DNA of 64,000 nt from Beijerinckiaceae bacterium (GTDB lineage Bacteria; Pseudomonadota; Alphaproteobacteria; Rhizobiales; Beijerinckiaceae), in NCBI GenBank assembly GCA_027531565.1, contig JAPZSB010000002.1:186001-250000 (forward strand), read 5' to 3'. Positions 12,389 through 30,925 of the stretch are shown here, piece by piece (position 1 is the stretch's first letter; every line of letters starts with the position of its first letter). Made by a program: the position numbers and the translations under genes. Under the pieces are notes generated by a model that was given only the letters and a program-made list of their open reading frames with translations, was not told where the DNA came from and did not search any database.

Positions 12389-13630
12389 ATGGCGGCCCTG
12401 CCCCACGCCCAGTTTCCGAGACAGACGGCCCAGCCGGTGCGGGTTGCCGTGGTCGACGACTCGGTGGTTGTCCGTGGCCTGCTGTCCAAATGGCTGTCGG
12501 AGACCAGCGGCATCGAGGTTGTCGGCGCGTTCAAGTCGGGCCGCGAGATCATCGACGCCTTGCCCGGCGTTGCGCCGCGCATCATCCTGCTCGATCTCGA
12601 CATGCCCGACATGGACGGGATCACGGCCCTGCCGCTGATCCTGGCGAAATCGCCGCAATCCCGCGTGATCGTCGTATCCTCGCTCTCCGTGCACGGTGCG
12701 GAGCTGACCATGCGCTCGCTGATGCGCGGCGCGACCGATTACCTGCCGAAACCGTCCAACCATCGCGAGGTTTCGACCTCGGCCGACTTCCGGCAGGCGC
12801 TGGTTGCCAAGGTGCTGGCCGTGGGCGGTGTCCGCGCGATCCCGCGGGCGCTGCCGCCGGCTGCCGCACCGAGACCGGCCGCTGCGCCGCCCGTGGCCCG
12901 GTCGCCTTTCCCCGCGACCAGCCCGATCCAGCGGATTCCTGCTGCCGCATCGCCGGTATCGCCGTTCCGCCAGGCCGTTCCTGCCGCCGCCGCTGCGGTC
13001 GATCGCTCAGCCGGGCCGCAGGTCCGGGCGCTCGAGCGCGTTCGGCCGAAAATGGTGGTGATCGGCGCCTCAACCGGCGGGCCGCAGGCGCTTGTTCTCA
13101 CGCTCGGGCGCATGAAGAACCTGATCGCGCGGGTTCCGGTGGTGATTGCCCAGCATATGCCGCCGATTTTCGGGTCGATCTTCGCCTCCCATCTCAAGCA
13201 GCATGCCGGCCTTCCGGCCGTCGAGGCTGTCGAAGGCAAGTCGCTCCAGCCCGGAACGATCTACCTCGCCCCGGGCGGCTGCCACACGGTGGTGCGCCGG
13301 AAGGCGGATGGCCAGCATGTCATTGCCATGCTCCCCTCCGAGGCCCGCGGCCCGTGGCGCCCCTCGATCGACCTGCTCTTCTCGAGCGCTGCCGAGGCCT
13401 ATGGCCACGAGGCCCTTGCCATTGCGCTGACCGGCATGGGGCGGGACGGCACCGAGGGAGCCCTCCATCTCTCGCGCCGCGGGGCGAATGTTCTCGTCCA
13501 GGACGAGGCGTCCAGCGTCGTCTGGGGAATTCCCGGATCCATTGCCGAGGCCGGTCTGGCCAGTTCCATCCTGCCTCCTGAAAAAATTGGCGAGCTCGCC
13601 GTCGCGCTGCTCGAAGGACAAGCCCCATGA
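12389..13630 (+). CDS. cheB: Chemotaxis glutamate methylesterase CheB
   Basis: The 413-residue protein has an N-terminal receiver (VAVVDDSVVVRG, acceptor Asp69 in IILLDLDMPDMDG). An unusually long Ala/Pro-rich linker (about 150-220) leads to the methylesterase domain. The catalytic triad signature is present: Ser in VVIGASTGGPQA, His in VVIAQHMPP and Asp in ALTGMGRDGTEG. It removes methyl groups from receptor glutamates, opposing CheR. The stop overlaps the cheR start by 4 bp. The start at 12389 is the ATG before the conserved receiver. Confidence 0.94.
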   Translation: MAALPHAQFPRQTAQPVRVAVVDDSVVVRGLLSKWLSETSGIEVVGAFKSGREIIDALPGVAPRIILLDLDMPDMDGITALPLILAKSPQSRVIVVSSLSVHGAELTMRSLMRGATDYLPKPSNHREVSTSADFRQALVAKVLAVGGVRAIPRALPPAAAPRPAAAPPVARSPFPATSPIQRIPAAASPVSPFRQAVPAAAAAVDRSAGPQVRALERVRPKMVVIGASTGGPQALVLTLGRMKNLIARVPVVIAQHMPPIFGSIFASHLKQHAGLPAVEAVEGKSLQPGTIYLAPGGCHTVVRRKADGQHVIAMLPSEARGPWRPSIDLLFSSAAEAYGHEALAIALTGMGRDGTEGALHLSRRGANVLVQDEASSVVWGIPGSIAEAGLASSILPPEKIGELAVALLEGQAP

Positions 13631-14643: not shown

Positions 14644-15345
14644 TCAGGCCGGGATGCGCTCGTCGGTATCGAGCGGCTCGCGGAGCACGTAGCCCCGACC
14701 CCACACCGTCTCGATATAGTTCCGGCCTTCCGAGGCATTGGCCAGCTTCTTCCGAAGCTTGCAGATGAAGACGTCGATGATCTTCAGTTCCGGCTCGTCC
14801 ATGCCGCCATAGAGATGGTTGAGGAACATTTCCTTGGTCAGCGTCGTGCCGCGCCGCAGCGAGAGCAGCTCGAGCATCTGGTATTCCTTGCCCGTGAGAT
14901 GGACGCGGTGGCCGCCGACCTCGACCGTCTTCTGATCCAGGTTGACCACGAGATCACCGGTCTGGATGACTGACTGGGCATGGCCCTTTGAGCGGCGGAC
15001 GATCGCATGGATGCGCGCAACGAGCTCATCCTTGTGGAACGGCTTGGTCAGGTAATCGTCGGCGCCGAAGCCGAGACCCTTCACCTTGTCATCGATGCCG
15101 GCCATGCCCGAAAGGATGAGGATCGGCGTCTTGACCTTGGCCACCCGGAGTGACCGCAGGACCTCGTAGCCGGACATGTCCGGGAGGTTCAGGTCGAGCA
15201 GGATGATGTCGTAATCGTACAGCTTGCCCAGATCGATCCCTTCTTCGCCGAGATCGGTCAGGTAGATGTTGAAGTTCTCCGACTTGAGCATCAGTTCGAT
15301 GCTCTTGGCGGTGGCATTGTCGTCTTCAATCAGGAGAACGCGCAT
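14644..15345 (-). CDS. ctrA: Cell-cycle response regulator CtrA
   Basis: The protein has 233 residues from the ATG at 15345, giving the standard MRVLLIEDD start; an in-frame upstream start adds nine non-conserved residues. The receiver has the acidic pocket EDD at 7-9, acceptor Asp51 ([14 protein letters not shown]) and Lys in [11 protein letters not shown]. The OmpR/PhoB-type winged helix carries the CtrA-specific [20 protein letters not shown] and YVLREP motifs. CtrA is the master regulator of cell cycle, division and flagellar genes and is phosphorylated via ChpT. Its upstream region carries a CtrA-like box and GANTC sites (separate entries), consistent with autoregulation and methylation-dependent control. 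Confidence 0.97.
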
Positions 15346-15764
15346 TTTCTGGTCCCCGGCCCCATAATCCATGCCTTGCCCGCAAACCGAATCGATACCG
15401 TCAGCGACGATCCGGCTCGCAGTCCATGCCTTAAAACTTCAGTCACAAATTACGCCCGAAGAGTTAACAAAGCGTAATTCGTTAAGGCAAGCTTGATGCT
15501 GTTTCTTCAGGATTTTTCCTAACTGCCGATGATTTTTGCGAAATTTTTTCGTCCACGACCGAGTTGATTCGATCTTGAAGCAGATCCGGCTAAGCGATTC
15601 GACTGACTCACTCTTTTTGCCGGTATCCGACCGGGCGCGCCGGCGCGGCACGTCAATCGGCGCGGGAAAGCCCGGGGCCGCGCTCGCCTCGCTTGCCGGT
15701 TCTGAGCTACCATTTGCAGGTGATTCGCAACGAATCAGCGGTCGTTCGGACGGCTGGCCAGCGG
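15346..15764. promoter_or_regulatory. ctrA-fliI divergent control region with six GANTC sites
   Basis: This 419-bp stretch has no gene and is AT-richer than its surroundings. It separates divergent ctrA and fliI. GANTC (CcrM methylation) sites lie at 15389, 15566, 15596, 15605, 15722 and 15732. At about 65% GC one such site is expected per roughly 300 bp, so six is a clear excess. Three of them fall within 44 bp. In Caulobacter, GANTC hemimethylation and GcrA control a ctrA promoter. T-runs near 15515 and 15545 could be parts of core promoters, but I cannot place a TSS. Confidence 0.7.
15482..15496 (-). promoter_or_regulatory. CtrA-like box upstream of ctrA
   Basis: Reading toward ctrA the site is TCAA-N7-TTAAC, one mismatch from the CtrA consensus TTAA-N7-TTAAC. 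It lies about 137 bp before the ctrA start codon. Further TTAA half-sites occur at 15431 and 15464. It fits CtrA autoregulation. Confidence 0.55.
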
Positions 15765-17646: not shown

Positions 17647-18243
17647 TCAGGGCTCGAGCAAGGGCAGCCACGGCGCCGCGTCACGCGGCAGGGTTCCATC
17701 CAGCCTCGGGTCGTCGAAGACCTCGATCGCGCGCCGGATCGGCCGGAATCCCGCCCGGCAGTAGAAATCCAGCGCGCGCGGATGATCAAGCGAGCAGGTA
17801 TGGACGTGAAGACGGTCCATTCCGGCCGCCTTGGCGCGCAGAAGCGCAGTCGTCATCAGCCGCTTGCCGATTCCCTGCCCGAGGGCGTCGGGGACAACGC
17901 CGAAAAATGCGAGTTCCGGCGCTTCCGTATCGCGGAAATCCAGTTCGAGCAGGCCGACATCCTTTCCGTCACGGACCAGCGCGTAGGCCTCGACAGCCGG
18001 TGCCATCAGGATTTCCCAGAGGGCGAGGTCCGGCATGCGCAGCCTGCTGAACCACAGCCATTCGGCGCCGACGGCGGAAAACAGGGAGCGATAGCGCTCG
18101 AGCGCTGCACCGTTGAGCCGTTCAAGGACGAAGCCTTCCGGCCAGGCCGGTTCGGCCGGGATGGTCTCGAGGTCATGGACGAGGTAGGTCACCAGGGCCG
18201 CAAGTTTCTGCGGATCGAGAAGGGTGTAGCCATCCTGTTGCAT
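17647..18243 (-). CDS. GNAT-family N-acetyltransferase
   Basis: In this 198-residue protein the acetyl-CoA-binding motif A is clear: LAFFGVVPDALGQGIGKRLM at about 115-135. It is followed by a beta-strand/helix pair (RLHVHTCSLDHPRALDFYCRAGF) that ends the GNAT fold. The N-terminal half is poorly conserved, so the substrate is unknown. It sits as a minus-strand guest gene between fliIJ and the YbhN-like gene. Confidence 0.85.
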   Translation of the reverse strand: MQQDGYTLLDPQKLAALVTYLVHDLETIPAEPAWPEGFVLERLNGAALERYRSLFSAVGAEWLWFSRLRMPDLALWEILMAPAVEAYALVRDGKDVGLLELDFRDTEAPELAFFGVVPDALGQGIGKRLMTTALLRAKAAGMDRLHVHTCSLDHPRALDFYCRAGFRPIRRAIEVFDDPRLDGTLPRDAAPWLPLLEP

Positions 18244-18445
18244 TGAAACCTGAATCCTTTGCCGGATCCGTTTGAGCAGGCCCGGTCCGGCAAGGCAAGA
18301 TCCGCTCCGGTCCTCTCCCCAGCCGTGTGATGCCGGGCTCCTGCGCCGGCGGGACGGAAATCATCCGAAGGTCTTGCCACGTCGGGGGATGTCGGGCAGT
18401 GAAACGCGGGACAGGCCCGTGAAGAGGGTCAGGGGCGGGGGAACG

Positions 18446-19468
18446 ATGAAGCGCTTCAAGGATTGGTTCTGGCCGATCGTCGGTCTGCTGGCCGTCGTTC
18501 TGTCTCTCAAGGTCCTTTACGACAAGTTGCGGGGCGAGGCGGCGACCGATGCCGCGACCAAGGCGCTGCTCGACAATGCCGGCGTCCTCGAAAGCCTCGC
18601 CATCATCTCGCGCGTCATCGGACAGAAGCTGGCGATCATTCCGATGCACGGCTACCTCCTCGCGGTGGCGGCCACGCTTTTCGCCTACTGGGCGCTGGCC
18701 TGGTATGACCGGATCGCCCTGATCCATCTCAACCGGACCAAGGGCATTTCGTGGTTCTACATCACGATCTGCTCGTTCACGACCTATGCCATCTCGCACA
18801 ATATCGGGGCCTCGGTGTTTTCCGGCGGCATGGTCCGGTACCGGGCCTATACGGCCAAGGGCCTCAGTGCACCGGAAGTGGCGGTGCTTGTCGCGCTCTG
18901 CTCCTTCACCTTCGGGTTTGGCACCATCCTGCTCGGCGGGCTCGTGCTGATGTACGAGCCGGAGATCGTGCAGCCGCTCCTGCCGCTCAGCCCGCTGGTC
19001 ACGCGGCTGATCGGCTTCGGGATGCTGGCTTTCTGCATCCTCTACACGATCGGGTCCTGGCTTCAGCTGAAGCCGCTGGTCATCCGGAATTTCAAGCTGG
19101 AATATCCCGGCCTGCATGTCGTCTGGCGCCAGTGGATCGCTGCGCCGATGGAATTGCTGGGGGCGGCGGGGATCATCTATTTCGCGCTTCCGGGCGAGAG
19201 CAATCCCGGCTTCATGATTGTCCTCGGGGCATTCCTGCTGTCCTTCTCGGCCGGGCTGCTCGTGCAGGCGCCCGGCGGGATCGGGGTGATGGAGGTCATC
19301 TTCCTCAAGGTCATGCCGGGCATGCCGGCGACCGAGGTCTTTGCGGCGCTGCTGGTCTGGCGGCTGCTCTACCTGCTGATCCCTCTCGCCATCTCGATTC
19401 CTGTCGTCCTGGCCTTCGAGAAATCGCAGCTCCGGAACGCTGCAAACGACACGACGCCGGCACCCTGA
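18446..19468 (+). CDS. YbhN/UPF0104-family multi-pass membrane protein (lysylphosphatidylglycerol synthase TM-like)
   Basis: The product has 340 residues from the ATG at 18446 with a G-rich Shine-Dalgarno. About eight hydrophobic segments are seen. The family signatures include YAISHNIGASVFSGGMVRYRAYTAKGLS and the C-terminal QAPGGIGVMEVIFL, which correspond to the flippase-like region of MprF/AglD/YbhN proteins. It has no soluble lysyl-transferase domain, so it is probably a lipid or polyprenyl-lipid transporter or flippase-like protein. Its stop codon lies inside a 10-bp-stem hairpin. Confidence 0.8.
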   Translation: MKRFKDWFWPIVGLLAVVLSLKVLYDKLRGEAATDAATKALLDNAGVLESLAIISRVIGQKLAIIPMHGYLLAVAATLFAYWALAWYDRIALIHLNRTKGISWFYITICSFTTYAISHNIGASVFSGGMVRYRAYTAKGLSAPEVAVLVALCSFTFGFGTILLGGLVLMYEPEIVQPLLPLSPLVTRLIGFGMLAFCILYTIGSWLQLKPLVIRNFKLEYPGLHVVWRQWIAAPMELLGAAGIIYFALPGESNPGFMIVLGAFLLSFSAGLLVQAPGGIGVMEVIFLKVMPGMPATEVFAALLVWRLLYLLIPLAISIPVVLAFEKSQLRNAANDTTPAP

Positions 19469-19481
19469 GGGGCCGGCGTCG
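19452..19481. terminator. Stem-loop overlapping the stop codon of the YbhN-like gene
   Basis: CGACGCCGGC (19452-19461) and GCCGGCGTCG (19472-19481) form a perfect 10-bp stem with a 10-nt loop that contains the TGA stop. flhA ends 31 bp further on from the other side. No T-run is present. Confidence 0.45.
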
Positions 19482-19512
19482 CGAGGCTTCATTCACCAAG
19501 CGAGCGAAGGTG

Positions 19513-21654
19513 TCAGATCGAGCCGACCGTCCGGAGGCGTGCGGAGGGGTGGATCTCGCCCTGGGCCAGCACGGCCGTCTGCGGGCGGAACCGTTCGACG
19601 ATCATGCGCACATAGGGGCGGATTGCGTTCGAGGTGACGAGGACCGGCAATTCGCCGAGCCGCGCCGCTTCCTCGAAACGGTCCCGCAGGGCGATCACGA
19701 AGTCATGCAGGCGCGAGGGCTGCATCGCGAGGTGCTTGATCTCGCCGTCGCCGACCAGTGACGAGGCAAAGGCATCCTCCCAGCTCGGCGACAGGGTGAT
19801 CAGCGCGAGCTGGCCGGTGGGGCCGGTATGCTGGGCGCAGATCTGCCGGCCGAGGCGCGAGCGGATATGCTCGACGATCATGCGCGGATCCCGGGTGACG
19901 GTGCCGGCGACTTCCGCCACCGCCTCGAGGATGGTGCCGAGGTCGCGGATCGAGACCCGCTCGGCGAGGAGCAGCTGGAGGATGCGCTGGATGCCGGTAA
20001 TGCTGATCGCGCCGTTCGTGAGGTCCTTCACGAGGTCCTGATGCGGCTTCGAGAGGTCCTTGAGCAGCTTCTGCACCTCTGCATAGGAGAGCAGTTCCGC
20101 CATGTTGTTCTTGATGATCTCGGTGAGATGCGTGGCGATGACGGTCGCCGGGTCGACCACCGTGTAGCCGCGCAGCTGCGCCTCGTCGCGCAGGCTCTCG
20201 TCGATCCAGGTGGCGGGGAGGCCGAAAGTCGGCTCCAGCATATGCGCGCCCGGCAGCTGGACCTGCCCGCCGGCCGGATCCATCGCCATGTACTGGTTCG
20301 GGAAGACGACCCCGTTGCCGGCATCGATCTCCTTCATCTTGATCACGTAGTGGTTCGATTCGAGCTGGACATTGTCGACCAGCCGGACCGAGGGGAGGAT
20401 GAAGCCCATCTCGGTCGCCAGCGTCCGGCGAAGGGCCTTGATCTGCTCCGTGATCTTGTCCTCGCCGTTCTGCCCCTGCACGAGCGGGAGAAGGGCGTAG
20501 CCGATCTCGATCCGCAACTCGTCGAGCCGGAGCGCTTCCTGCACGGGGGGGTCGGAGGCCTTCTGCTGGGCCACGACCTGCTCCATCGCCTGCTCGGCCG
20601 CGGCATCGATCCGCGCCTGCTTCTCCTGCCGGTCGAGGCGCCAGGCCATGTAGCCGGCCAGCAGGGCGAGGCCGAGGAACGGGATGGCCGGCATGCCCGG
20701 CAGGATGGCGATGACGACCATGACGAAGGACGACATGCCGAGTGCCTTGGAGGAGCTGGCCAGCTGCTTGGACAGGGCCTTGTCGGCGGCGCCGGTGACG
20801 CCGGCCTTGGAGACCAGCAGGCCGGCCGCGGTCGAGACGATCAGGGCCGGGATCTGGGTGACGAGGCCATCGCCGACGGTCAGCAGCGTGTAGGCCTTCG
20901 CCGCGTCGTTGAAGGTCATGCCGTTCTGGGCGACGCCGATGATGATGCCACCCACGACGTTGATGAAGGTGATCAGGATGCCGGCAATCGCATCGCCGCG
21001 CACGAACTTCGAGGCACCGTCCATGGCACCGAAGAAGGCGCTCTCGTCCTCGAGAGCCTTGCGGCGGGCCTTGGCCTCGTCCTGGTCGATCAGGCCGGCC
21101 GAGAGATCGGCGTCGATCGCCATCTGCTTGCCGGGCATCGCGTCAAGGCTGAAGCGGGCCGCGACTTCCGCGATGCGGCTCGAACCCTTGGTGATGACGA
21201 CGAAGTTCACGATCACGAGGATGACGAAGACGATCACCCCGATCACGAAATTGCCGCCCATCACGAAATTGCCGAAGGCCTCGATGACATGCCCTGCCGC
21301 GCCCTGGCCGGTATGGCCGTTCTGGAGGATCAGCCGGGTCGAGGCGAGATTCAGCGACAGCCGCAACATCGTTGCGATCAGCAGGATCGTCGGGAAGGAC
21401 GAGAATTCCAGCGGTGCCGCGATGAAGAGCGCGGTCATCAGGATCAGGACCGAGAGAATGATCGAGAACGCCAGCAGCAGGTCGAGCACCATCGGCGGCA
21501 GCGGCACGATCAGGACGACCAGGATCGTCAGGATCCCCATGGCGAGGGCGATATCACCCCGCTTCAGGAAAGCGCCAAGCTCTTGAGGTGTCATGAATTT
21601 TGGCGTCTGGAGTCCGGGAAGGCCTCCCTTGCCGCCAAGGCTCGCGTCACTCAT
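19513..21654 (-). CDS. flhA: Flagellar export gate protein FlhA
   Basis: The product has 713 residues from the ATG at 21654, preceded by AGGGGA; an upstream in-frame start would cover promoter DNA. The N-terminal half has about eight membrane helices with the FHIPEP-family signature region (PTILLIATMLRLSLNLASTRLIL) and the cytoplasmic loop RFSLDAMPGKQMAIDADLSAG. The C-terminal half is the cytoplasmic ring (FlhA-C) that docks export substrates and chaperones. The gene is separated from flbD by 112 bp containing its own promoter elements. As in Caulobacter, flhA stands apart from the fliF operon. Confidence 0.97.
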   Translation of the reverse strand: MSDASLGGKGGLPGLQTPKFMTPQELGAFLKRGDIALAMGILTILVVLIVPLPPMVLDLLLAFSIILSVLILMTALFIAAPLEFSSFPTILLIATMLRLSLNLASTRLILQNGHTGQGAAGHVIEAFGNFVMGGNFVIGVIVFVILVIVNFVVITKGSSRIAEVAARFSLDAMPGKQMAIDADLSAGLIDQDEAKARRKALEDESAFFGAMDGASKFVRGDAIAGILITFINVVGGIIIGVAQNGMTFNDAAKAYTLLTVGDGLVTQIPALIVSTAAGLLVSKAGVTGAADKALSKQLASSSKALGMSSFVMVVIAILPGMPAIPFLGLALLAGYMAWRLDRQEKQARIDAAAEQAMEQVVAQQKASDPPVQEALRLDELRIEIGYALLPLVQGQNGEDKITEQIKALRRTLATEMGFILPSVRLVDNVQLESNHYVIKMKEIDAGNGVVFPNQYMAMDPAGGQVQLPGAHMLEPTFGLPATWIDESLRDEAQLRGYTVVDPATVIATHLTEIIKNNMAELLSYAEVQKLLKDLSKPHQDLVKDLTNGAISITGIQRILQLLLAERVSIRDLGTILEAVAEVAGTVTRDPRMIVEHIRSRLGRQICAQHTGPTGQLALITLSPSWEDAFASSLVGDGEIKHLAMQPSRLHDFVIALRDRFEEAARLGELPVLVTSNAIRPYVRMIVERFRPQTAVLAQGEIHPSARLRTVGSI

Positions 21655-21712: not shown

Positions 21713-21725
21713 GGCAATTTTTGCC
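21713..21725 (-). promoter_or_regulatory. Candidate FlbD operator in the flhA promoter
   Basis: GGCAA-AAA-TTGCC (minus strand) is a 13-bp palindrome ending 58 bp before the flhA start. The same palindrome occurs upstream of fliF (27060-27072) and fliK (30911-30923). FlbD is the obvious candidate because its gene is adjacent and Caulobacter FlbD binds palindromic ftr sites in flagellar promoters. A GANTC site lies at 21684-21688. Confidence 0.6.
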
Positions 21726-21734
21726 GGGCATATG

Positions 21735-21750
21735 GTTAACGCCCGGTTAC
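21735..21750 (-). promoter_or_regulatory. CtrA box of the flhA promoter
   Basis: The minus strand reads GTAA-CCGGGCG-TTAAC, one mismatch from TTAA-N7-TTAAC. It is exactly 9 bp upstream of the palindrome at 21713-21725, the same spacing as in front of fliF. Confidence 0.65.
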
Positions 21751-21766: not shown

Positions 21767-23134
21767 TTAAAGCGCGGCAATCCGCGCGGCGCCGGGCTCC
21801 GGAACATCGATGCCGACGGCCACATATTCGTTGAGCTTGTTGCGCAACGTCCGGATGGAGATGCCGAGAATCTTGGCGGCATGGGTGCGGTTGCCGAGGC
21901 AATGATCGAGCGTGTCGAGAATCAGCTCGCGTTCGACATCGGCCACCGTCCGGCCGACAAGCGCACGCGTGGCGGCCTCGGCAGCTTCCGCAACCTTCCG
22001 CGCGGTGGCCTCGTTGGCATCGCGGCTGATCGATTCCCCTTCCGGGGTCAGGATCGCATCCGGTCCGATATCGACGCCATTGGCCAGCAGGACGGCGCGA
22101 TGCAGCGTGTTCTCGAGTTCGCGCACGTTGCCGCGCCAGGGATTGGCCAGCAGCATCCGCTTGGCGTCATGGCTGATCGGGCGGACCGGCAGCCCGTTCA
22201 TCTGGGCGTAGCGCTTGGCGAAATGGTTCGCGAGTTCGATGATGTCGTTCGGCCGTTCCCGCAGCGGCGGGATCTTCAGGTTGACGACATTGAGCCGGTA
22301 GAGAAGGTCCTCGCGGAATTCGCCCGATTTCACGCTTTCGGCGAGATTGCGGTTCGAGGTCGCGATGATGCGGATATCGACCGGAACCGGCCGGGTGCCG
22401 CCGACGCGGTCGATCACACGCTCCTGGATCGCCCGGAGCAGCTTGGCCTGAAGGCGGACATCCATTTCCGAGATTTCGTCCAGCAGGAGCGTGCCGCCAT
22501 CGGCCTCCTCGAACTTGCCGACGCGCCGGGCGATTGCGCCGGTAAAGGCACCCTTCTCGTGGCCGAACAGCTCGCTCTCGAGCAGGTTGTCGGGGATCGC
22601 GGCACAGTTGACCGACACGAAGGGCTTGGCCGAACGGCGCGATTTCTCGTGCAGGAACCGCGCCATGACTTCCTTGCCGACGCCCGATTCCCCGGTGATC
22701 AGCACCGAGGCATCGGAGCCCGCAATCTGCTGGGCGAGCTTGATGACGCGGGCCATCGCCTCGTCGCGGAAGACGATGGAGGTTTCGGTCTTGCTGACGG
22801 CCTCGAGAATGGCCGCGATCAGCTCCGGGTCGGGCGGAAGCGGGATATATTCCTTCGCGCCGGCCTCGATGGCCGCCACCGCCGCGCGCTTGTCGTTCGC
22901 GACACCGCAGGCCACGATGGGCAGCGTCATGTGTTCCGACGCGAGTCCTTCCGCGAGGGCCGCGATGTTCAGATGGGCATCGACCATGGCCAGATCGGCG
23001 CCCTTGCCCTGCCGCAGATGGGACAGGGCGGCCTCGATCCCGTCGACCTGTGCGACCGACGCGCCCCGCTCCCGGGCGATCTTCGCGGCGGTGATCAATT
23101 CACCGCGCAAGGTTCCGACAATCAGAAGCCGCAT
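21767..23134 (-). CDS. flbD: Sigma-54-dependent flagellar regulator FlbD
   Basis: The 455-residue protein has three parts. An N-terminal receiver-like domain (about 1-115) lacks the acidic pair (it starts MRLLIVGTLRG) but keeps an Asp in ADLAMVDAHL. An AAA+ sigma-54-interaction domain (about 130-360) has GESGVGKE (Walker A), the GAFTGA loop near residue 196 and GGTLLLDEISEMD (Walker B). A Fis-type helix-turn-helix at about 405-445 reads LDTLDHCLGNRTHAAKILGIS. In Caulobacter, FlbD activates sigma-54 class III/IV flagellar promoters and represses fliF. It is the last gene of fliF-fliG-fliH-fliN-flbD, the Caulobacter order. Confidence 0.95.
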   Translation of the reverse strand: MRLLIVGTLRGELITAAKIARERGASVAQVDGIEAALSHLRQGKGADLAMVDAHLNIAALAEGLASEHMTLPIVACGVANDKRAAVAAIEAGAKEYIPLPPDPELIAAILEAVSKTETSIVFRDEAMARVIKLAQQIAGSDASVLITGESGVGKEVMARFLHEKSRRSAKPFVSVNCAAIPDNLLESELFGHEKGAFTGAIARRVGKFEEADGGTLLLDEISEMDVRLQAKLLRAIQERVIDRVGGTRPVPVDIRIIATSNRNLAESVKSGEFREDLLYRLNVVNLKIPPLRERPNDIIELANHFAKRYAQMNGLPVRPISHDAKRMLLANPWRGNVRELENTLHRAVLLANGVDIGPDAILTPEGESISRDANEATARKVAEAAEAATRALVGRTVADVERELILDTLDHCLGNRTHAAKILGISIRTLRNKLNEYVAVGIDVPEPGAARIAAL

Positions 23135-23163: not shown

Positions 23164-23511
23164 TCAGCGGTCGGACTTGATGATTTCCGTCATGGTCACG
23201 CCGAGCTTGTCATCGACCAGCACCACTTCGCCGCGCGCGACCAGCCGGTCGTTGACGAAAATGTCGATCGCCTCGCCGACGCGGCGATCGAGCTCGAGAA
23301 TATGCCCCGGGCTCATCCGGAGCAGTTCGCCCACGCCCATCTTGGACCGGCCGAGCACGGCCGAGACCTGCACGGGCACATCGAAGACATGCTCGAGATC
23401 CGCTGCGGTCTTGGAGGAGAGCGGGGTCTCGCCATCGCTGCCATAGGCGGCGGCGACCAGATCAGCAGTCGATTCCAGATCCTGGAGCTGGAAATTGTTG
23501 TCAGTGGCCAT
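23164..23511 (-). CDS. fliN: Flagellar motor switch/C-ring protein FliN
   Basis: This is a 115-residue protein. The SpoA (surface presentation of antigens) domain covers the C-terminal 75 residues: VFDVPVQVSAVLGRSKMGVGELLRM, then GHILELDRRVGEAIDIFVNDRLVARGEVVLVDDKLGV. This is a typical FliN. It forms the lower C-ring with FliM and FliG and docks FliH-FliI. It lies 46 bp after fliH and 29 bp before flbD. fliM is not in the window. Confidence 0.94.
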   Translation of the reverse strand: MATDNNFQLQDLESTADLVAAAYGSDGETPLSSKTAADLEHVFDVPVQVSAVLGRSKMGVGELLRMSPGHILELDRRVGEAIDIFVNDRLVARGEVVLVDDKLGVTMTEIIKSDR

Positions 23512-23557: not shown

Positions 23558-24199
23558 TCAGTCCTCGGCATCGGGGAAGAGCATCTTCGCCGATGTCTCG
23601 ATGAGGTTCTCAAGGCGGTTCCGGTCGCGGACGATGCCGCCGTCGGACCATTCGATCCGGCAATCGCCGAGCGCGATCTCCGGATCCGGAAACACGAAGA
23701 GCCGCGATTCGATGCCGTTTTCCTTCAGGAGGCCGATCAGCCGCTCCTTGCAGGGATCGACGAGATCGGGTGCGACCCGCACCGCGACATGGGGCGAACC
23801 GCGGAGATCGTTGAAGATCGCCCGCGCGGTCGCCTCGATCGCGCCGACCGGCGCGGTATCGATCAGGCGTCCCGCGATCTTGCGGGCGAAAAGCATCGCG
23901 AAGGCCAGGGCCTCGCTGCGCGCGGTCTCCTCGAGGCGCCGCATCTCGATCGTCGCGATCTCCAGCCGGGCACTGATGGCGTCGAGGCCATTGGCGATCC
24001 GGATCTGCTCGTTGTCGGCCTGCATCCGCCGGCCTTCCTCGATGCCCTGCTGGTAGGCCGCCTGCCGGGCTTCCTCGACGAGGCGCGCATGCTCGGGATA
24101 GGGCACAGGCACGCGCTGGCCGGGCTCGATGAAGGGCAGGCCCGAACCGGCTTTCGTGAAATCCCGGCCGAAGGTGAAGGCAGAGCGAGCGGTCGACAT
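23558..24199 (-). CDS. fliH: Flagellar assembly protein FliH
   Basis: In this 213-residue protein an N-terminal segment carries RPE-like GQRVPVPYPEHARLVEEARQAAYQQGIEEGRR, the GxxxG-rich helix of FliH. It is followed by a helical middle and a C-terminal alpha/beta part (VRVAPDLVDPCKERLI, DPEIALGDCRIEWSDGG) that resembles the FliH/YscL/F-ATPase-delta family. It regulates FliI and anchors it to FliN. It lies 10 bp after fliG. In Caulobacter the gene at this position is called flbE. Confidence 0.9.
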   Translation of the reverse strand: MSTARSAFTFGRDFTKAGSGLPFIEPGQRVPVPYPEHARLVEEARQAAYQQGIEEGRRMQADNEQIRIANGLDAISARLEIATIEMRRLEETARSEALAFAMLFARKIAGRLIDTAPVGAIEATARAIFNDLRGSPHVAVRVAPDLVDPCKERLIGLLKENGIESRLFVFPDPEIALGDCRIEWSDGGIVRDRNRLENLIETSAKMLFPDAED

Positions 24200-24209
24200 G
24201 GCGTGGCCT

Positions 24210-25271
24210 TCAGTAGATCAGTTCGTCTTCGGCGCGGTTCTTGCCGATGGTGATTTCACCCTTCGAGGCCAGTTCCTTCGCCAGCATGACAATGCGGGTC
24301 TGTGCCTCGTCGACCTCCTTGAGGCGGACGGGGCCGCGGCTCTGCATCAGTTCTTCCATGTTCTTCGCGGCGCGGGTCGACATCTGCTGGAAGAAGAACT
24401 TCTTCATGGCCGGCGCCGCGCCCTTGAGCGCCACGGCGAGAATGTCGCGGTCCGAATAGCGGATCAGCGTCTGGGTCGAGCCCGGATCGAGCTTTGCCAG
24501 ATCGTCGAAAGTGAACATCAGCGACCGGATCTTCTGGGCCGCCTCGCGGTTGCGCTCGTCAAGCGCGGCGAGGAACCAGCTTTCCGTCTGCCGGTCGAAG
24601 GAGTTGAAGATCTCGGCGATCATCTCGTGGCTGTCACGGCGCGAGGTCTGCGACAGGTTGGAGATGAACTCGGTGCGCAGGGTTTCCTCGATATGCGCAA
24701 GCACTTCCTTCTGCACCGGCTCCATGTTGAGCATCCGGTTCACGACTTCCAGCGCGAATTCGTGCGGCAGCAGCGAAAGGACGCGCGCGGCATTTTCCGA
24801 ACGGATCTTCGAGAGGATCACCGCCACGGTCTGCGGATATTCGCCCTTGAGATAGTTGGCGAGAACCTGATCCTGCACGTTGCCGAGCTTCTGCCACATG
24901 TTGCGACCGGCCGGACCGCGGATCTCCTCCATCAGGGAGTAGACCTTGTCCTTCGGCAGCAACTTGCTGAGCAGGGCTTCGGTGCGGTCATAGTCGCCGG
25001 TGACGGCGCCGCCCTGGGCCATCATCGACAGGAATTCCGCAACCAGGGCCTCGACCGCTTCCGCCGTGACCGCGCCCAGCCGGGACATGGCCCGCGAAAC
25101 GGTGCGGATCTCGTCCTCGTCGAGCGCCTCCCAGACCGGGCCGCCATAGCGCTCGCCAAGGACGAGCAGGATGATCGAGGCCTTTTCCGGGCCGGACAGG
25201 AACCGTGTCAGTTCCTTGTTCGGTGCCGGAGCGGTTTCCGGCGTCTTTTCCGCTGTACTCGTCTTCGCCAT
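24210..25271 (-). CDS. fliG: Flagellar motor switch protein FliG
   Basis: The 353-residue protein has an N-terminal FliF-binding domain ([21 protein letters not shown]). The middle domain holds the EHPQ-like region ([13 protein letters not shown]). The C-terminal torque helix carries alternating charges ([33 protein letters not shown]). It is the C-ring component that contacts the stator. It is in the fliF operon, 40 bp after fliF. Confidence 0.96.
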
Positions 25272-25311: not shown

Positions 25312-27000
25312 TTAGCGTGTCTGGGCGATCCACTGGCGAACGATCGCCACGGATTCACTCGGGTTTTCCTGCACGATCCGGCCGAGGCTATCGATCGCGC
25401 CCTGCTGGAGTGCGTGCTGGATCGTGTTGACATTCGTCTGGTTCGAGTTGGCGGCGACCATTGCCCCGGCCTGGCCCGGGGCGGGCAAGGCCAGAGGCTG
25501 GCCGGCCGGACCGGCGGCGCCGGGCACCATGCCGGACGCGTCGATCACGCTCTGGAGCCCGCCGATCTGCGGTACGGCAACCAGCGACGTGTCGGTGCGT
25601 TCCTTCGTGCCGATTCCCATCTGGCGCAGCAGCGGGCGGACCACCAGCAGCGTGACCAGCAGCGTCAGCAGGCCGAAGACGCCGATCTCGACCATGCGGA
25701 GGATGTCTTCCTTGGTCAGGGCAAGCATCTGCTCGGTGAAGGTCGGCGTCCGGCCCTCGACCGCGGCCACACCCTCGGCGAAGCGGAGATTGATCACATC
25801 GACCTGGTCGCCGCGGTTGCGGTCGAACCCTATCGAGGAGCGCACAAGCGCCGCGATGCGTTCGAGTTCCTCGGCCGGGCGCGGCTGGTAGTTCATCTGG
25901 CCATTCGCGCCGGGGGTGTAGATCCCGTCGACCAGCACGGCAACCGAGAGGCGCTTCACCCGACCGGCCTCGATGATCTCGGTGCGCGTGGTCTTGGTGA
26001 TCTCGTAATTGACGATTTCCTCGTTGCGCTGGGTCGCATCCCGCTGCTGCGGATTGGCTTGCGCATTCTGCTGCTGCTGCTGCGGCAGTTCGTTGCCGAT
26101 GGTGACCTGGTTGTCCCGGGTTTCCTGGCTCTGCTGGTTCTCGGTCCGGGTCTGGGTAGAGCGAATCACCCGGCTCTCGGGATCGAAGCTGTCGGTCACC
26201 TGCTGCACGCGGTTGAAATCCATCTCGGCGGCGACCTGCACCCGGGCGCGACCCCGCCCGACAATGCTGGCGACGATATCCTCCACCTGGCCCCGCAGGC
26301 GGCGCTCGTGGTTGCTCTGCTTGTCGGCCGCGAGGGCGGCGGCATCGGTCTCGTTGCCGGCGCCGTCGGCCAGCAGGCGGCCGGTTTCGTCGACGATGGA
26401 GACGCGCTCGGGCTTCAGGCCCTGCACTGCTGTCGCCACGAGATGGCGAACCGCCCGGATCTGCCCCGGTTCGAGTTCGCCCCGGACCTTCAGCACGATC
26501 GAGGCACGCGGTTCCTGCCGGTCACGTTCGAACAGGCGCTTTTCGGGAATGGCGAGATGGACACGGGCCTGCTGCACCCGCTCGATGCTGCGGATGGTGC
26601 GGGACAGTTCGCCTTCGAGGGCCCGGAGCTGGTTGACGCCCTGCACGAGGCTGGTGGCGGAGAAACTGTCGCTCTTGTCGAAGATCTCGTAGCCGACCGT
26701 GCCGCCGGCGGGCATGCCCTTGCTGGCAAATTCCATCCGGAGGCGGGTGGCCTGATCCCGGGGAACCAGGATCGTGGTGCCGTCCCCGCGCAATTCGTAG
26801 CGGACCCCGCGGTTTTCCAGGTCCCGAACGATGGCGTTCGAATCCTGGATCGGGAGATCGCTGAAGAGAACGCCCATATTCGGGCCGGACATCTTCGTCA
26901 TCACGAAGGCGAAGAAGCCCACGAGAGCAAGGGTTACGGCCCCCATCGCCACCAGGCGCTGCGGTCCCAACCGGTTCACGAGTTCGAGGATGCCGTTCAC
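25312..27000 (-). CDS. fliF: Flagellar MS-ring protein FliF
   Basis: The 562-residue protein has a first membrane helix at about 15-37 (GAVTLALVGFFAFVMTKM). The periplasmic ring-building region has LFSDLPIQDSNAIVRDLENRGVRYEL and EGELSRTIRSIERVQQARVHLAIPE. A second helix follows at about 437-460 (VFGLLTLLVTLLVVRPLL), then a C-terminal tail that binds FliG. A Gln/Asn-rich stretch (about 295-320) lies in the periplasmic part. It is the first gene of the flagellar operon ending in flbD and is preceded by the CtrA box and palindrome at 27060-27097. It is divergent from pdxA. Confidence 0.96.
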   Translation of the reverse strand: MNGILELVNRLGPQRLVAMGAVTLALVGFFAFVMTKMSGPNMGVLFSDLPIQDSNAIVRDLENRGVRYELRGDGTTILVPRDQATRLRMEFASKGMPAGGTVGYEIFDKSDSFSATSLVQGVNQLRALEGELSRTIRSIERVQQARVHLAIPEKRLFERDRQEPRASIVLKVRGELEPGQIRAVRHLVATAVQGLKPERVSIVDETGRLLADGAGNETDAAALAADKQSNHERRLRGQVEDIVASIVGRGRARVQVAAEMDFNRVQQVTDSFDPESRVIRSTQTRTENQQSQETRDNQVTIGNELPQQQQQNAQANPQQRDATQRNEEIVNYEITKTTRTEIIEAGRVKRLSVAVLVDGIYTPGANGQMNYQPRPAEELERIAALVRSSIGFDRNRGDQVDVINLRFAEGVAAVEGRTPTFTEQMLALTKEDILRMVEIGVFGLLTLLVTLLVVRPLLRQMGIGTKERTDTSLVAVPQIGGLQSVIDASGMVPGAAGPAGQPLALPAPGQAGAMVAANSNQTNVNTIQHALQQGAIDSLGRIVQENPSESVAIVRQWIAQTR

Positions 27001-27059: not shown

Positions 27060-27072
27060 GGCAAGAATTGCC
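27060..27072 (-). promoter_or_regulatory. Candidate FlbD operator in the fliF promoter
   Basis: GGCAA-TTC-TTGCC on the minus strand, 59 bp before the fliF start. It is 9 bp downstream of the CtrA box, as at flhA. In Caulobacter, FlbD represses fliF from such a site (ftr4); the same role is inferred here. Confidence 0.6.
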
Positions 27073-27081
27073 CGGTGGATG

Positions 27082-27097
27082 GTTACCGGGCCGTTAA
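27082..27097 (-). promoter_or_regulatory. CtrA box of the fliF promoter
   Basis: The minus strand reads TTAA-CGGCCCG-GTAAC, one mismatch from the CtrA consensus TTAA-N7-TTAAC. Caulobacter fliF is a known direct CtrA target. It lies in the 186-bp fliF-pdxA divergent region, which otherwise shows no gene. Confidence 0.65.
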
Positions 27098-27186: not shown

Positions 27187-28185
27187 ATGTCCGCTCCTCT
27201 CGCGATCACCATGGGCGATGCTGCGGGAATCGGCCCCGAAATCATTGCCCGCCATGTCGAGATCCACGGTCCGGACGGCCTCGTCGTGCTCGGCGATCCG
27301 GCCCAGATGCGGCGCGCCTTTGCCCTGATCGGGTCCCGACGTTCCATCGTCTCATGGGAGCAAGACCAGCCCCTCAAGATGAATCCTAAAATTGGCGGCA
27401 CCGATTCGCCGCTGGCGATGATCGATACCGGCTCGGTCCCGGCCGACATCCCCTATGGCGTCATTTCGGCCGAAGCGGGCGCGCTCGCTCATGCCGCCAT
27501 TCTCCGCGCAATCGACCTTGCGATGGCCGGGCGCGTGGCGGGGCTGGTCACCGCGCCGATCCACAAGGAAGCGCTGCATGCCGCCGGAGTGCCCTTCCCG
27601 GGGCATACCGAGATCCTGGCCGACCGGACCGGCACGCGCGATTTCGCGATGATGCTGGCCGAGGGCCCGCTTCGCGTGATCCTCGTCTCGATCCATGTCT
27701 CGCTGCGTCAGGCGCTCGACCTCGTTACCGAGGCGCGGGTGCTGCGGACGATCCGCCTCGCGGACCAGGCGTGCCGGGCGCTCGGCATCGAGCAGCCGCG
27801 AATCGCCGTGGCCGGGCTGAACCCGCATGCCGGCGAGGGCGGGCTGTTCGGCCATGAGGATGCGGAGGTTATCGCCCCGGCCATTGCCGCCGCGCGGGTG
27901 GAAGGACTGGAGGCCAGCGGGCCTTACCCGCCGGATACGGTCTTCATGCGCGCGCGGCGCGGAGCCTTCGATATCGTTGTCGCGCAGTATCACGACCAGG
28001 GGTTGATCCCGGTCAAGCTCAACGGGATCGAGAAGGGTGTCAACGTGACGATCGGGCTGCCGATCATCCGGACGTCGGTCGATCACGGCACGGCGTTCGA
28101 TATTGCCGGCAGGGGGCTGGCCGATCCGTCCAGCCTGAGCGAGGCGATTGCCGTGGCCCGCCGGATGATCGCGGCGCGGGGCTGA
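27187..28185 (+). CDS. pdxA: 4-hydroxythreonine-4-phosphate dehydrogenase PdxA
   Basis: The product has 332 residues from the ATG at 27187 with AGGAAGG upstream. The family motifs ITMGDAAGIGPEI, TAPIHKEALHAAGVPFPGHTE, GLNPHAGEGGLFGHED and AQYHDQGLIPVKL (metal- and substrate-binding His/Asp residues) are all present. The enzyme oxidises 4-phosphohydroxy-L-threonine in pyridoxal phosphate synthesis. It is a biosynthetic guest inside the flagellar region, divergent from fliF. No ksgA or surA is next to it. Confidence 0.95.
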   Translation: MSAPLAITMGDAAGIGPEIIARHVEIHGPDGLVVLGDPAQMRRAFALIGSRRSIVSWEQDQPLKMNPKIGGTDSPLAMIDTGSVPADIPYGVISAEAGALAHAAILRAIDLAMAGRVAGLVTAPIHKEALHAAGVPFPGHTEILADRTGTRDFAMMLAEGPLRVILVSIHVSLRQALDLVTEARVLRTIRLADQACRALGIEQPRIAVAGLNPHAGEGGLFGHEDAEVIAPAIAAARVEGLEASGPYPPDTVFMRARRGAFDIVVAQYHDQGLIPVKLNGIEKGVNVTIGLPIIRTSVDHGTAFDIAGRGLADPSSLSEAIAVARRMIAARG

Positions 28186-28193
28186 TCCCCGAC

Positions 28194-28217
28194 GCCAAAA
28201 AGCCCGCCGAAGCGGGC
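28194..28217. terminator. Terminator between pdxA and sciP (strong on minus strand)
   Basis: GCCCGC (28202-28207) and GCGGGC (28212-28217) form a stem with a CGAA loop. On the minus strand it is followed by an uninterrupted run of five T, ending sciP transcripts 24 bp after the stop. On the plus strand it is followed by CTTGTC and may end pdxA. Confidence 0.8.
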
Positions 28218-28241
28218 CTTGTCGGGCGCGGAGGGCGCCGG

Positions 28242-28517
28242 TTACTGGCGGTAATGCTGGATGCGCGTCGTGCGGAGCCCGGCGAGGCCGTGCTCGTCGA
28301 TCGAATGCTGCCAGGACAGGAATTCCTCGACCGTCAGCGTGTAGCGCGAGCAGGCCTCCTCGAGGGAAAGCAGGCCGCCCCGGACGGCAGCGACCACTTC
28401 GGCCTTCCTGCGGATCACCCACCGGCGGGTTTCCGGCGGCGGCAGATCGGCGATCGTCAGGGGGCTGCCATCGGGACCGATGACATACTTCACACGCGGG
28501 CGAAGTGGTTCACTCAT
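28242..28517 (-). CDS. sciP: CtrA inhibitory protein SciP (DUF1153)
   Basis: The product has 91 residues from the ATG at 28517, which gives the family-typical start just before RVKYVIGPDGSPLTIADLP. The TRRWVIRRKAEVVAAVRGGL helix and the SLEEACSRYTLTVEEFLSW helix-turn-helix are the DUF1153 signature. In Caulobacter, SciP is a small G1-phase protein that represses CtrA-activated genes by binding CtrA or nearby DNA; its own gene is activated by CtrA. A CtrA-like box lies 53 bp upstream. An in-frame TTG at 28538 adds seven residues and is less likely. Confidence 0.93.
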   Translation of the reverse strand: MSEPLRPRVKYVIGPDGSPLTIADLPPPETRRWVIRRKAEVVAAVRGGLLSLEEACSRYTLTVEEFLSWQHSIDEHGLAGLRTTRIQHYRQ

Positions 28518-29263: not shown

Positions 29264-30766
29264 TCAGATCATCAGATCCAGGCTGGTGTTGGGGATGAGG
29301 GCGCGACGCATCACCAATTCGCCCATCTGCGGTGTGGTGCCGATATCCTCGAGCCCCTGCTGGGACGAGCCCTGACGGCCCCGTTCCTGCTGCTGGCCCG
29401 ACTGGCCCTCGCCCCTCAGGGAGAAGGTCAGTCCATCGGCGGATTGCTTCAGGCCGGCCTGTTCGAAGGCCTGCTGGAGCGTGGAAGCATCGCGGCGCAG
29501 CATCTGCAGCGTCTCGACGCGATCGACAACGAGGCTGGCATTCACTTCGCCATTCTCCTTGATCTGGAGTTTCACATCGACGCGGCCGAGCTCGGCCGGA
29601 TCGAGGCGGATCTGGAAATTCGTGACCCCGCGCACCGCCTGCATGCCGATCTCGATCGGCAGCATCTGCAGCGGTGTCGGGCGGATGGCCGCCGTCTCGG
29701 CCTGGCCGAGACCGGCGGTCGGAAGCGAGCGGTCGAGGCCGGCAAGGATATCCGCCGGGCGATAGATTGCGTTCTGGGTGCCCATGCCGTGGAACAACTC
29801 GGCGAAAGGCGTTGTCCGGACCGGGTGATGACCCTGGCCCGCGCCCTGGGCTTTCGCCTCCGTCCCGACCGGATTTGTGGCGGTCTCCGCGGCCTTGGCG
29901 CCCTTGCCCGAAGTCTCGGCAGCCGCAAGGAGCGATCCCGCTTCGACGCCGGTGGTTTCCGCGGTTGCGCCCGCGTCCGGGGCGGACTTGCCGGCCGGAG
30001 CCACGATGGCAGCCGTTCCGGCATCCTTGGCCGGGGCAGCATTCGCCTCGGTCGTGGCGGTGGCTTCCGTGGCCGCCTTGGCGGCCATCGCGGCCGCTCC
30101 GGTTGCGGCAACGACGTCGCCGTCTGCGGGCGCCTCGCCCGCAGGTGCGGGGACAGCAGCCGGAACCGCGGCAATGCCATCGGCATCGACCGGCGTGTCA
30201 ACAGCGACAGCCACGGCCGTCTCGGCCGTGACATCCGTGGCTTCGCCTTCGGTCGTGCCGGCCTTATCCGCGGCCGCAGCCTCGTCGCCTTCCGCCTTGG
30301 CGATGGCATCGGTTTCGCCGGATTCATCGCCGCCGGCCTGCGCTTCGGCCGTCTCCTCGCCCTCGGGCTTGTCGCCTTCGGCCTCGCCCTGTGTCTCGCG
30401 GGCCTCGTCGGCGGACCGACGCTCGTCAGCCCGGGCCTTGGTCGCATCGTCAGCCCGGTCGTCCTTGCGGTCCGCCCGCTTCGGGGCGGTGTCATCGGGC
30501 CGGCCGCGCGGCGCGTCCTGTTCTTCGGCCGCCGGGTTCGCGCGGGGCGACGGATCGGGCGCATTCTCCCGCGGGGGGACCGGACGTGCCTCGCTGCGCT
30601 GCGGCCCTGGCGCCGATCGGGCCCATTCCGAGACCAGCGAACCGAAATTGTCCGGCTCGTTCCCGTCCCGGGCGGTCTGGCGTTCACCCGGCCGCATCTC
30701 GGCCCGGCGAGTGGCGATCTCGGTCAGGGCATTGGTCAGGCTGGTCAGCATCGTGTTCGACATCAT
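29264..30766 (-). CDS. fliK: Flagellar hook-length control protein FliK
   Basis: The product has 500 residues from the ATG at 30766, with AGGA 6 bp upstream; starting further upstream would place the start inside the sigma-54 element. Most of the protein (about 30-340) is low-complexity Ala/Glu/Asp/Thr-rich sequence, as in other FliK rulers. The conserved C-terminal substrate-switching domain reads [19 protein letters not shown], then [27 protein letters not shown]. It measures the hook and switches export specificity with FlhB. Confidence 0.9.
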
Positions 30767-30797: not shown

Positions 30798-30813
30798 TGC
30801 AAGCCGGAGGCCA
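30798..30813 (-). promoter_or_regulatory. Sigma-54 (-24/-12) promoter of fliK-flgD
   Basis: The minus strand reads TGGCCT-CCGGC-TTGCA, against the consensus TGGCAC-N5-TTGCA, with correct GG to GC spacing of 12. The inferred start of transcription is near 30787, about 20 nt before the fliK ATG. A class III flagellar operon with this element should need FlbD. Confidence 0.7.
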
Positions 30814-30908: not shown

Positions 30909-30925
30909 CCGGCAAAAATTGCCGG
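30909..30925. promoter_or_regulatory. Candidate FlbD enhancer: perfect 17-bp palindrome
   Basis: CCGGCAA-AAA-TTGCCGG is a perfect 7-bp inverted repeat about 105 bp upstream of the -24 element of fliK. Its 13-bp core equals the flhA palindrome. Between enhancer and promoter lies a very AT-rich stretch (about 30828-30860) that would favour bending. It is also 52 bp upstream of mnmA on the other strand. Confidence 0.65.

Follow-up and report, generated by a model that had tools for sequence, protein, structure and literature searches.

In Caulobacter crescentus, the early flagellar genes are activated by CtrA, and fliF is repressed by FlbD acting at the site ftr4 (excerpts of PMC3930126). FlbD activates the middle and later genes of the same organism via other ftr sites (excerpts of PMC3930126 and PMC3096577), and expression of a fliF-lacZ fusion rises without FliX (excerpts of PMC3096577). 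In Rhodobacter sphaeroides, CtrA boxes have been described at the fliF2 and flgB2 promoters of the fla2 system, with mapped starts, and the excerpted text of the same source states that FlbD is absent in the Rhodobacteraceae shown and that the fla2 genes are expressed without involvement of any of the four RpoN proteins (PMC6180460).

The window analysed here (the whole stretch of DNA, 64,000 nucleotides) contains two promoters, ahead of fliF and flhA, in which a CtrA-type box is followed at a fixed distance by a short palindrome. Our main reading, with a probability of about 0.78, is that the two promoters belong to early flagellar operons, are activated by CtrA and carry a built-in off-switch worked by FlbD; the binding of both proteins, the transcription start, the operon limits and the repression are what we infer.

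Composite promoters of the window

The flagellar genes of the window are the following:

25312 to 27000, minus strand: fliF (GTG start; Pfam YscJ_FliF and YscJ_FliF_C)
24210 to 25271, minus strand: fliG, downstream of fliF (Pfam FliG_N, FliG_M, FliG_C)
23558 to 24199, minus strand: FliH-like gene (Pfam FliH at 22.6 bits, under the curated cut-off of 24.1)
23164 to 23511, minus strand: fliN (Pfam FliMN_C)
21767 to 23134, minus strand: flbD, coding for the presumed second factor (Pfam Sigma54_activat and HTH_8; receiver domain below cut-off)
19513 to 21654, minus strand: flhA (Pfam FHIPEP)
29264 to 30766, minus strand: fliK (Pfam Flg_hook; likely ATG at 30766, mechanical ORF start at 30802)

The first six stand in succession on one strand, with a gap of 112 bp between flbD and flhA, and the fliF composite heads the string that contains flbD. 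FlbD of the window carries GAFTGA at residue 195, and its close relatives stand beside flagellar genes of type I (defined below). This loop is needed for sigma-54 (excerpts of PMC10274813 and PMC12421884). Two long ORFs on the minus strand of the flagellar region (18173-19492 and 27352-28422) have no Pfam match and may or may not be genes.

Read from the letters on the minus strand, the fliF promoter (27097-27060) is TTAA-CGGCCCG-GTAAC, 9 bp, GGCAA-TTC-TTGCC, and the flhA promoter (21750-21713) is GTAA-CCGGGCG-TTAAC, 9 bp, GGCAA-AAA-TTGCC. Their elements are:

27082 to 27097, minus strand: CtrA-type box of the fliF promoter, TTAA-N7-GTAAC (1 mismatch to TTAA-N7-TTAAC)
27060 to 27072, minus strand: fliF promoter palindrome GGCAA-TTC-TTGCC, presumed operator (ftr) for FlbD (exact match; kept in relatives; linked to FlbD through sigma-54)
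21735 to 21750, minus strand: CtrA-type box of the flhA promoter, GTAA-N7-TTAAC (1 mismatch to the consensus)
21713 to 21725, minus strand: flhA promoter palindrome GGCAA-AAA-TTGCC, presumed operator (ftr) for FlbD (exact match; kept in relatives)

The sequence-only reading had noticed that fliF and flhA share box, 9-bp gap and palindrome, and this likeness proved to be well above chance: the window holds two composites with at most 3 mismatches (0.00 expected) and three exact palindromes (0.04 expected), numbers reached in 0/100 shuffles in both cases. Palindromes with one mismatch were uninformative (4 in the window against 2.3 expected, 19/100 shuffles reaching 4), so only exact palindromes were used. 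Two details of that reading did not hold: fliF starts with GTG and not ATG, and the agreement between the two leaders (the composites end 59 bp ahead of the fliF start codon at 27000 and 58 bp ahead of the flhA ATG at 21654) is a coincidence, since in relatives the distance from the end of the site to the start of the matched protein varies widely, from 29 to 258 bp for fliF (n=66) and from 26 to 237 bp for flhA (n=40). A further CtrA-type box, TCAA-N7-TTAAC, is found on the minus strand at 15481-15496 of the window, about 110 bp before the ORF 14644-15372.

The rest of the genome

The scan of the whole genome (3.67 Mb, 13 contigs) gave composites with at most 3 mismatches only at flgB (0 mismatches), flhA (1) and fliF (1), and none with the reversed control. 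The flgB composite (L038; G000:C11:154474-154511, minus) lies on another contig than the window and has a full CtrA box, TTAA-N7-TTAA. Among relatives, the flgB composite of Rhabdaerophilum calidifontis has exactly the letters of the one in G287, a genome assigned to the window's genus, so that the window probably comes from Rhabdaerophilum. Behind flgB, on the same strand, stand fliE, fliR and flhB, and on the opposite strand, divergent from the composite, stand fliP and, before it, a gene that we take to be FliO-like from this place, as Pfam assigns it no family. Judging from the gene strings of fliF, flhA and flgB, the composites therefore head genes for the MS ring, the C ring, the rod base and the export gate.

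The exact palindrome occurs at 7 places in this genome (reversed control: 1), five of which are flagellar promoters: fliF, flhA, fliK (30911), flgB and the fliL/flgF intergenic region. Of the other two, one falls in a release-factor-like gene and one between a glmM-like and an ftsH-like gene (labels read by eye from the translations). In the latter gap (L007:1501-1513; G000:C12:402525) the exact palindrome stands 10 bp behind a TTAAC that has no second TTAA. Loosening the palindrome pattern, with 2 mismatches allowed, yielded over 1000 matches in the genome, and this search was dropped. In the second flagellar cluster, a gene for a DUF6468 protein lies directly behind fliM (L196:11378-11839, minus).

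Conservation at orthologous genes

Searches with FlbD, FlhA and FliF covered 150 genomes of the order and separated two flagellar types: type I, with FlhA at or above about 850 bits and FliF above 390 bits, as a rule with a close FlbD, and type II, with FlhA of about 45% identity, FliF of about 30% and FlbD matches below about 285 bits. Upstream regions were chosen by gene, not by motif, and scored at spacing 9 with at most 3/19 mismatches. For type I, 87 of 88 genomes were used for flhA (a fragment in G089 was left out, and G002 was taken from an N-terminal piece) and 84 of 85 for fliF (a fragment in G144 was left out); the type II controls comprised 20 of 27 flhA and 23 of 26 fliF regions, weaker matches being unused.

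At this threshold the composite is present in 66/84 type I fliF regions, leaving 18 without it, and in 40/87 type I flhA regions; counted by family, it is found in 24/31 for fliF and 13/31 for flhA. The type II regions gave 0/23 for fliF and 0/20 for flhA, four of these fliF regions belonging to second systems in genomes that also have type I (G035, G119, G143, G149), and the reversed motif gave 0 in the same upstream regions at up to 3 mismatches. Two genomes have a composite without a full FlbD match, G128 (at fliF; 88% complete) and G123 (at flhA; 56% complete). These results, together with the genome scan, favour the earlier proposal of one conserved composite promoter, in as far as sequence can tell.

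The spacing is rigid: at up to 2 mismatches the fliF counts at spacings of 8, 9 and 10 are 3, 56 and 2. At up to 3 mismatches, fliF also gives 20/84 at spacing 8 and 22/84 at spacing 20, and flhA gives 13/87 at spacing 20, counts that we take to reflect a GGG run, along which the match can slide by one base, and an additional TTAA situated 11 bp farther upstream. The presence of the composite at flhA depends on gene order, being found in 7/49 regions where flhA lies directly behind flbD (this genome is among the seven) versus 33/38 where flhA lies elsewhere (Fisher p 6.5e-12, ignoring kinship), and this contrast indicates that the composite marks the heads of transcription units.

Relatives found by the motif

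At least 119 stretches with the exact composite are present in the public genome collection, with record titles that are mostly Hyphomicrobiales among the 119 matches listed. In a tblastn comparison with the proteins of this genome (which also took in one flhA site of the same genus, 120 in all, and in which fliK could not be matched because the FliK query was out of frame), the genes downstream of the 119 matches listed were FlgB (75), FliF (25), FlhA (9), FliO-like (1) and none (9); thus, among the matches listed, 110 composites precede flgB, fliF, flhA or fliO/P genes. In the FliO-like case (L141), the composite points to a fliP-type gene, and flgB lies on its opposite side. Among the nine unmatched stretches in the matches listed, five look like flgB sites, the gene being beyond the end of the stretch and a FliO-like gene being divergent as at flgB, and four come from Asticcacaulis and precede a transglycosylase-domain gene (Pfam SLT for the one tested).

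In these four (L111, L179, L186, L192) the exact composite lies 1-37 bp before the lytic transglycosylase-domain gene, and in two of them it is one base ahead of the ATG, which would fit a leaderless start. Another stretch (L064) has two exact composites back to back, at G002:C135:12886-12923 (minus) and 12988-13025 (plus), in the gap that separates flgB from the FliO-like gene. Composites with 3 mismatches occur in 223/297 genomes, a tally that is not counted as evidence because the reversed control also matches in many genomes.

Beyond the order, three Asticcacaulis genomes (Caulobacter's family) have upstream of fliF TTAA-N7-TTAAC, 9 bp, GGAAATTACTGCC or similar, then TAGT; the composite is thus found at 3/3 main fliF copies, with 2 mismatches each and spacing 9, and the scored upstream region of a second FliF-like copy in one of these genomes is without it. 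A search of the class matched FliF in 167/289 genomes, and of the best 27 fliF regions outside the window's own family, 6 score within 3 mismatches when the spacing is 9 and 5 when it is 8. A class-wide scan for the exact letters, with the spacing left free, found 6/385 genomes, two of the same genus and the others with a spacing other than 9; exact letters are too strict a search outside the order. From these sequence comparisons the layout seems to be older than the order, though less strict outside it.

The palindrome near sigma-54 consensus sites

Palindromes that stand away from CtrA boxes bear on the identity of the second factor. In the window there is one such site, ahead of fliK:

30911 to 30923, minus strand: exact palindrome ahead of fliK that lacks a CtrA box, presumed enhancer for FlbD (97 bp from the sigma-54 consensus)
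30798 to 30813, minus strand: sigma-54 type promoter TGGCCTCCGGCTTGCA of fliK (consensus match only)

Similarly, the palindrome between fliL and flgF (L196:13650-13662; G000:C11:163649) lies 99 bp upstream of a sigma-54 consensus that reads to flgF, so that early promoters and putative sigma-54 promoters of later flagellar genes (fliK, flgF) have the presumed operator motif in common. On the fliL side of the latter palindrome a TTAAC stands on the far side, and one palindrome might therefore serve both fliL and flgF.

Altogether, 29 distinct exact palindromes without a CtrA box were collected, two from this genome and 27 from the 119 public stretches listed. Among these matches, 11/29 have a sigma-54 consensus 77-99 bp away and reading away from them, versus 91/7320 random positions, a contrast that is partly chosen because this stricter, oriented scan was designed after seeing a first one (GC at -12, both sides, 250 bp), which had given 13/29 in the matches listed versus 1290/5950 random places. 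Nine of the eleven, all from Roseibium/Labrenzia-type records, do not count as independent, and the fliK and flgF palindromes of this genome complete the eleven; the remaining 18/29 among the matches listed have no sigma-54 consensus in range. Searching the sigma-54 pattern genome-wide gave 116 and 130 matches versus 56 and 62 in the control, and was dropped.

Palindromes near a sigma-54 consensus and away from CtrA boxes point to FlbD, encoded next to flhA, as the binder, and the pattern fits a protein that would act from the same palindrome as an enhancer at later genes and as an operator at early ones. FlbD had already been put forward as the second factor from the window's letters, and the candidate is now well supported by indirect evidence from sequence, namely the association of the composite with FlbD-type flagella and the palindromes at sigma-54 consensus sites.

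Predicted start site and promoter core

At position 40 of the composite, the second base after the palindrome, all fliF (66/66) and flhA (40/40) sites have a purine, as do about 96% of 118 public sites (among the matches listed), and position 39 is A in none of the fliF, flhA and public sites compared (for the public ones, among the matches listed). Start sites typically show a pyrimidine-purine step. Full CtrA motifs of C. crescentus begin near -35, and at -39 for ctrA P2 (excerpts of PMC4287350), positions that lead to the same base. The conserved purine, taken with this analogy, suggests the following starts:

27058, minus strand: predicted fliF transcription start, composite position 40 (from the conserved purine and the C. 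crescentus box positions)
21711, minus strand: predicted flhA transcription start, composite position 40 (from the purine in 40/40 flhA sites)

With a start at position 40, the palindrome would lie between -14 and -2. A/T makes up 79-89% of its centre, against 40-44% of the spacer and 33-42% of the next 27 bp, and the G/C content of the centre is 21% in the composites versus 52% in the 11 sigma-54-linked palindromes among the matches listed (ignoring kinship); given these contents, the core may double as the -10 element. No clear -10 hexamer was identified in the composite promoters. The two halves of the palindrome are not equally kept at fliF, where the right half is TTGCC in 60/66 sites and the left half is GGCAA in 25/66, GGAAA in 21 and GGTAA in 19, whereas at flhA the left half GGCAA is kept in 34/40. 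A kept right half and a drifting left half are as expected if the right side has a second duty, and the drift makes a perfect operator at fliF less convincing.

These observations can be joined in a tentative reading, to which we give somewhat less than even odds: the AA-N3-TT core would be operator and -10 at once, and CtrA box, -10/operator and start would make up a single module some 41 bp long whose spacing is locked; it would be old and portable and would predate the split between Hyphomicrobiales and Caulobacteraceae. Such a module would sit ahead of any early flagellar gene that comes first in its transcription unit (fliF, flgB, and flhA if apart from flbD) and would be lost behind another gene.

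Proposed mechanism and alternatives

In the proposed mechanism, CtrA would bind TTAA-N7-TTAAC and recruit the housekeeping polymerase, and FlbD, the flagellar sigma-54 activator, would bind the palindrome at about -14 to -2 and, once active, block the early promoter. Where this palindrome stands 77-99 bp ahead of a sigma-54 promoter (fliK, flgF), FlbD would switch on the next genes. Since flbD lies inside the fliF gene string, the circuit would be an autoregulatory loop, and the 9-bp spacing would be fixed because both sites keep register with the polymerase. At the level of sequence, the sites, their rigid spacing, their conservation at the same genes, the restriction to FlbD-type flagella and the presence of the palindrome at sigma-54 consensus matches are established; that the second factor represses, by covering the -10/start region, is the more likely sign of its action, given the predicted geometry and the C. 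crescentus precedent.

FlbD could instead bind the palindrome as a co-activator with CtrA, or set timing only, without being a repressor. Direct contact between the two proteins would also explain the fixed distance from CtrA box to palindrome, but a protein bound at the predicted -14 to -2 would cover the -10 region, and in C. crescentus FlbD represses fliF (excerpts of PMC3930126 and PMC3096577), which makes this reading unlikely. It is quite unlikely, too, that a protein other than FlbD occupies the palindrome at the early promoters. Binding by FlbD is a prediction from sequence, and the genome encodes other sigma-54 activators (six matches to FlbD, one of them at full strength); against this, the composite goes with FlbD-type flagella and is found in 0/43 promoters of the other type, four of them in genomes that also have the FlbD type, and the palindrome recurs before the sigma-54 consensus of flagellar genes.

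That the palindrome is a core promoter element only, forming the -10/start region for CtrA-dependent transcription and no operator, would account for the rigid spacing, the A/T-rich centre and the better conservation of the right half at fliF, but the palindromes before a sigma-54 consensus and away from CtrA boxes cannot be a -10 there, and the perfect two-fold symmetry is kept in flhA, so we regard this reading as very unlikely. A sigma-54 promoter in disguise is highly improbable: GGCA and TTGC resemble -24/-12 letters, but the distance from GG to GC is 8 bp in flhA and at best 9 bp in fliF, not 10, which does not fit GG-N10-GC, and the CtrA box stands where an activated sigma-70 type promoter needs it. 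Chance likeness between fliF and flhA, conceivable with just two sites in the window, is practically negligible in view of the shuffles (0/100), the genome counts (3 vs 0) and the conservation at orthologous genes.

Comparison with known systems

The preferred reading, a CtrA-activated early promoter that FlbD would shut off, describes a real, conserved composite promoter of a kind that is already known. What is added is the rigid spacing (which work on C. crescentus may already have published), the occurrence of the composite ahead of three early operons, its link with FlbD-type flagella and its role as a mark of transcription-unit heads. The control known from one model organism is thereby extended to much of an order through a signature of fixed geometry that can be read from sequence, and from which one can predict where transcription starts, which genes are targets and whether FlbD activates or represses, in many species on whose FlbD the literature searched contains little work. 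With its two positions, behind flbD and away from it, flhA offers a natural experiment on promoter gain and loss with operon layout.

Within the order of the window's organism, an FlbD-FliX system is reportedly at work in Bradyrhizobium diazoefficiens, where such control is said to have been described by Dardis et al. in 2021. The fla2 genes of Rhodobacter sphaeroides are alike in having CtrA boxes at the fliF and flgB promoters, and differ in that the excerpted text describes no ftr palindrome for them (PMC6180460). The closest likeness is to the class II fliF operon promoter of C. crescentus with its ftr4 site, which by analogy would make the composite an early promoter activated by CtrA and repressed by FlbD; unlike the fliF/ftr4 account in the excerpts of that literature, the composite described here also heads flhA and flgB, and its spacing is fixed over an order.
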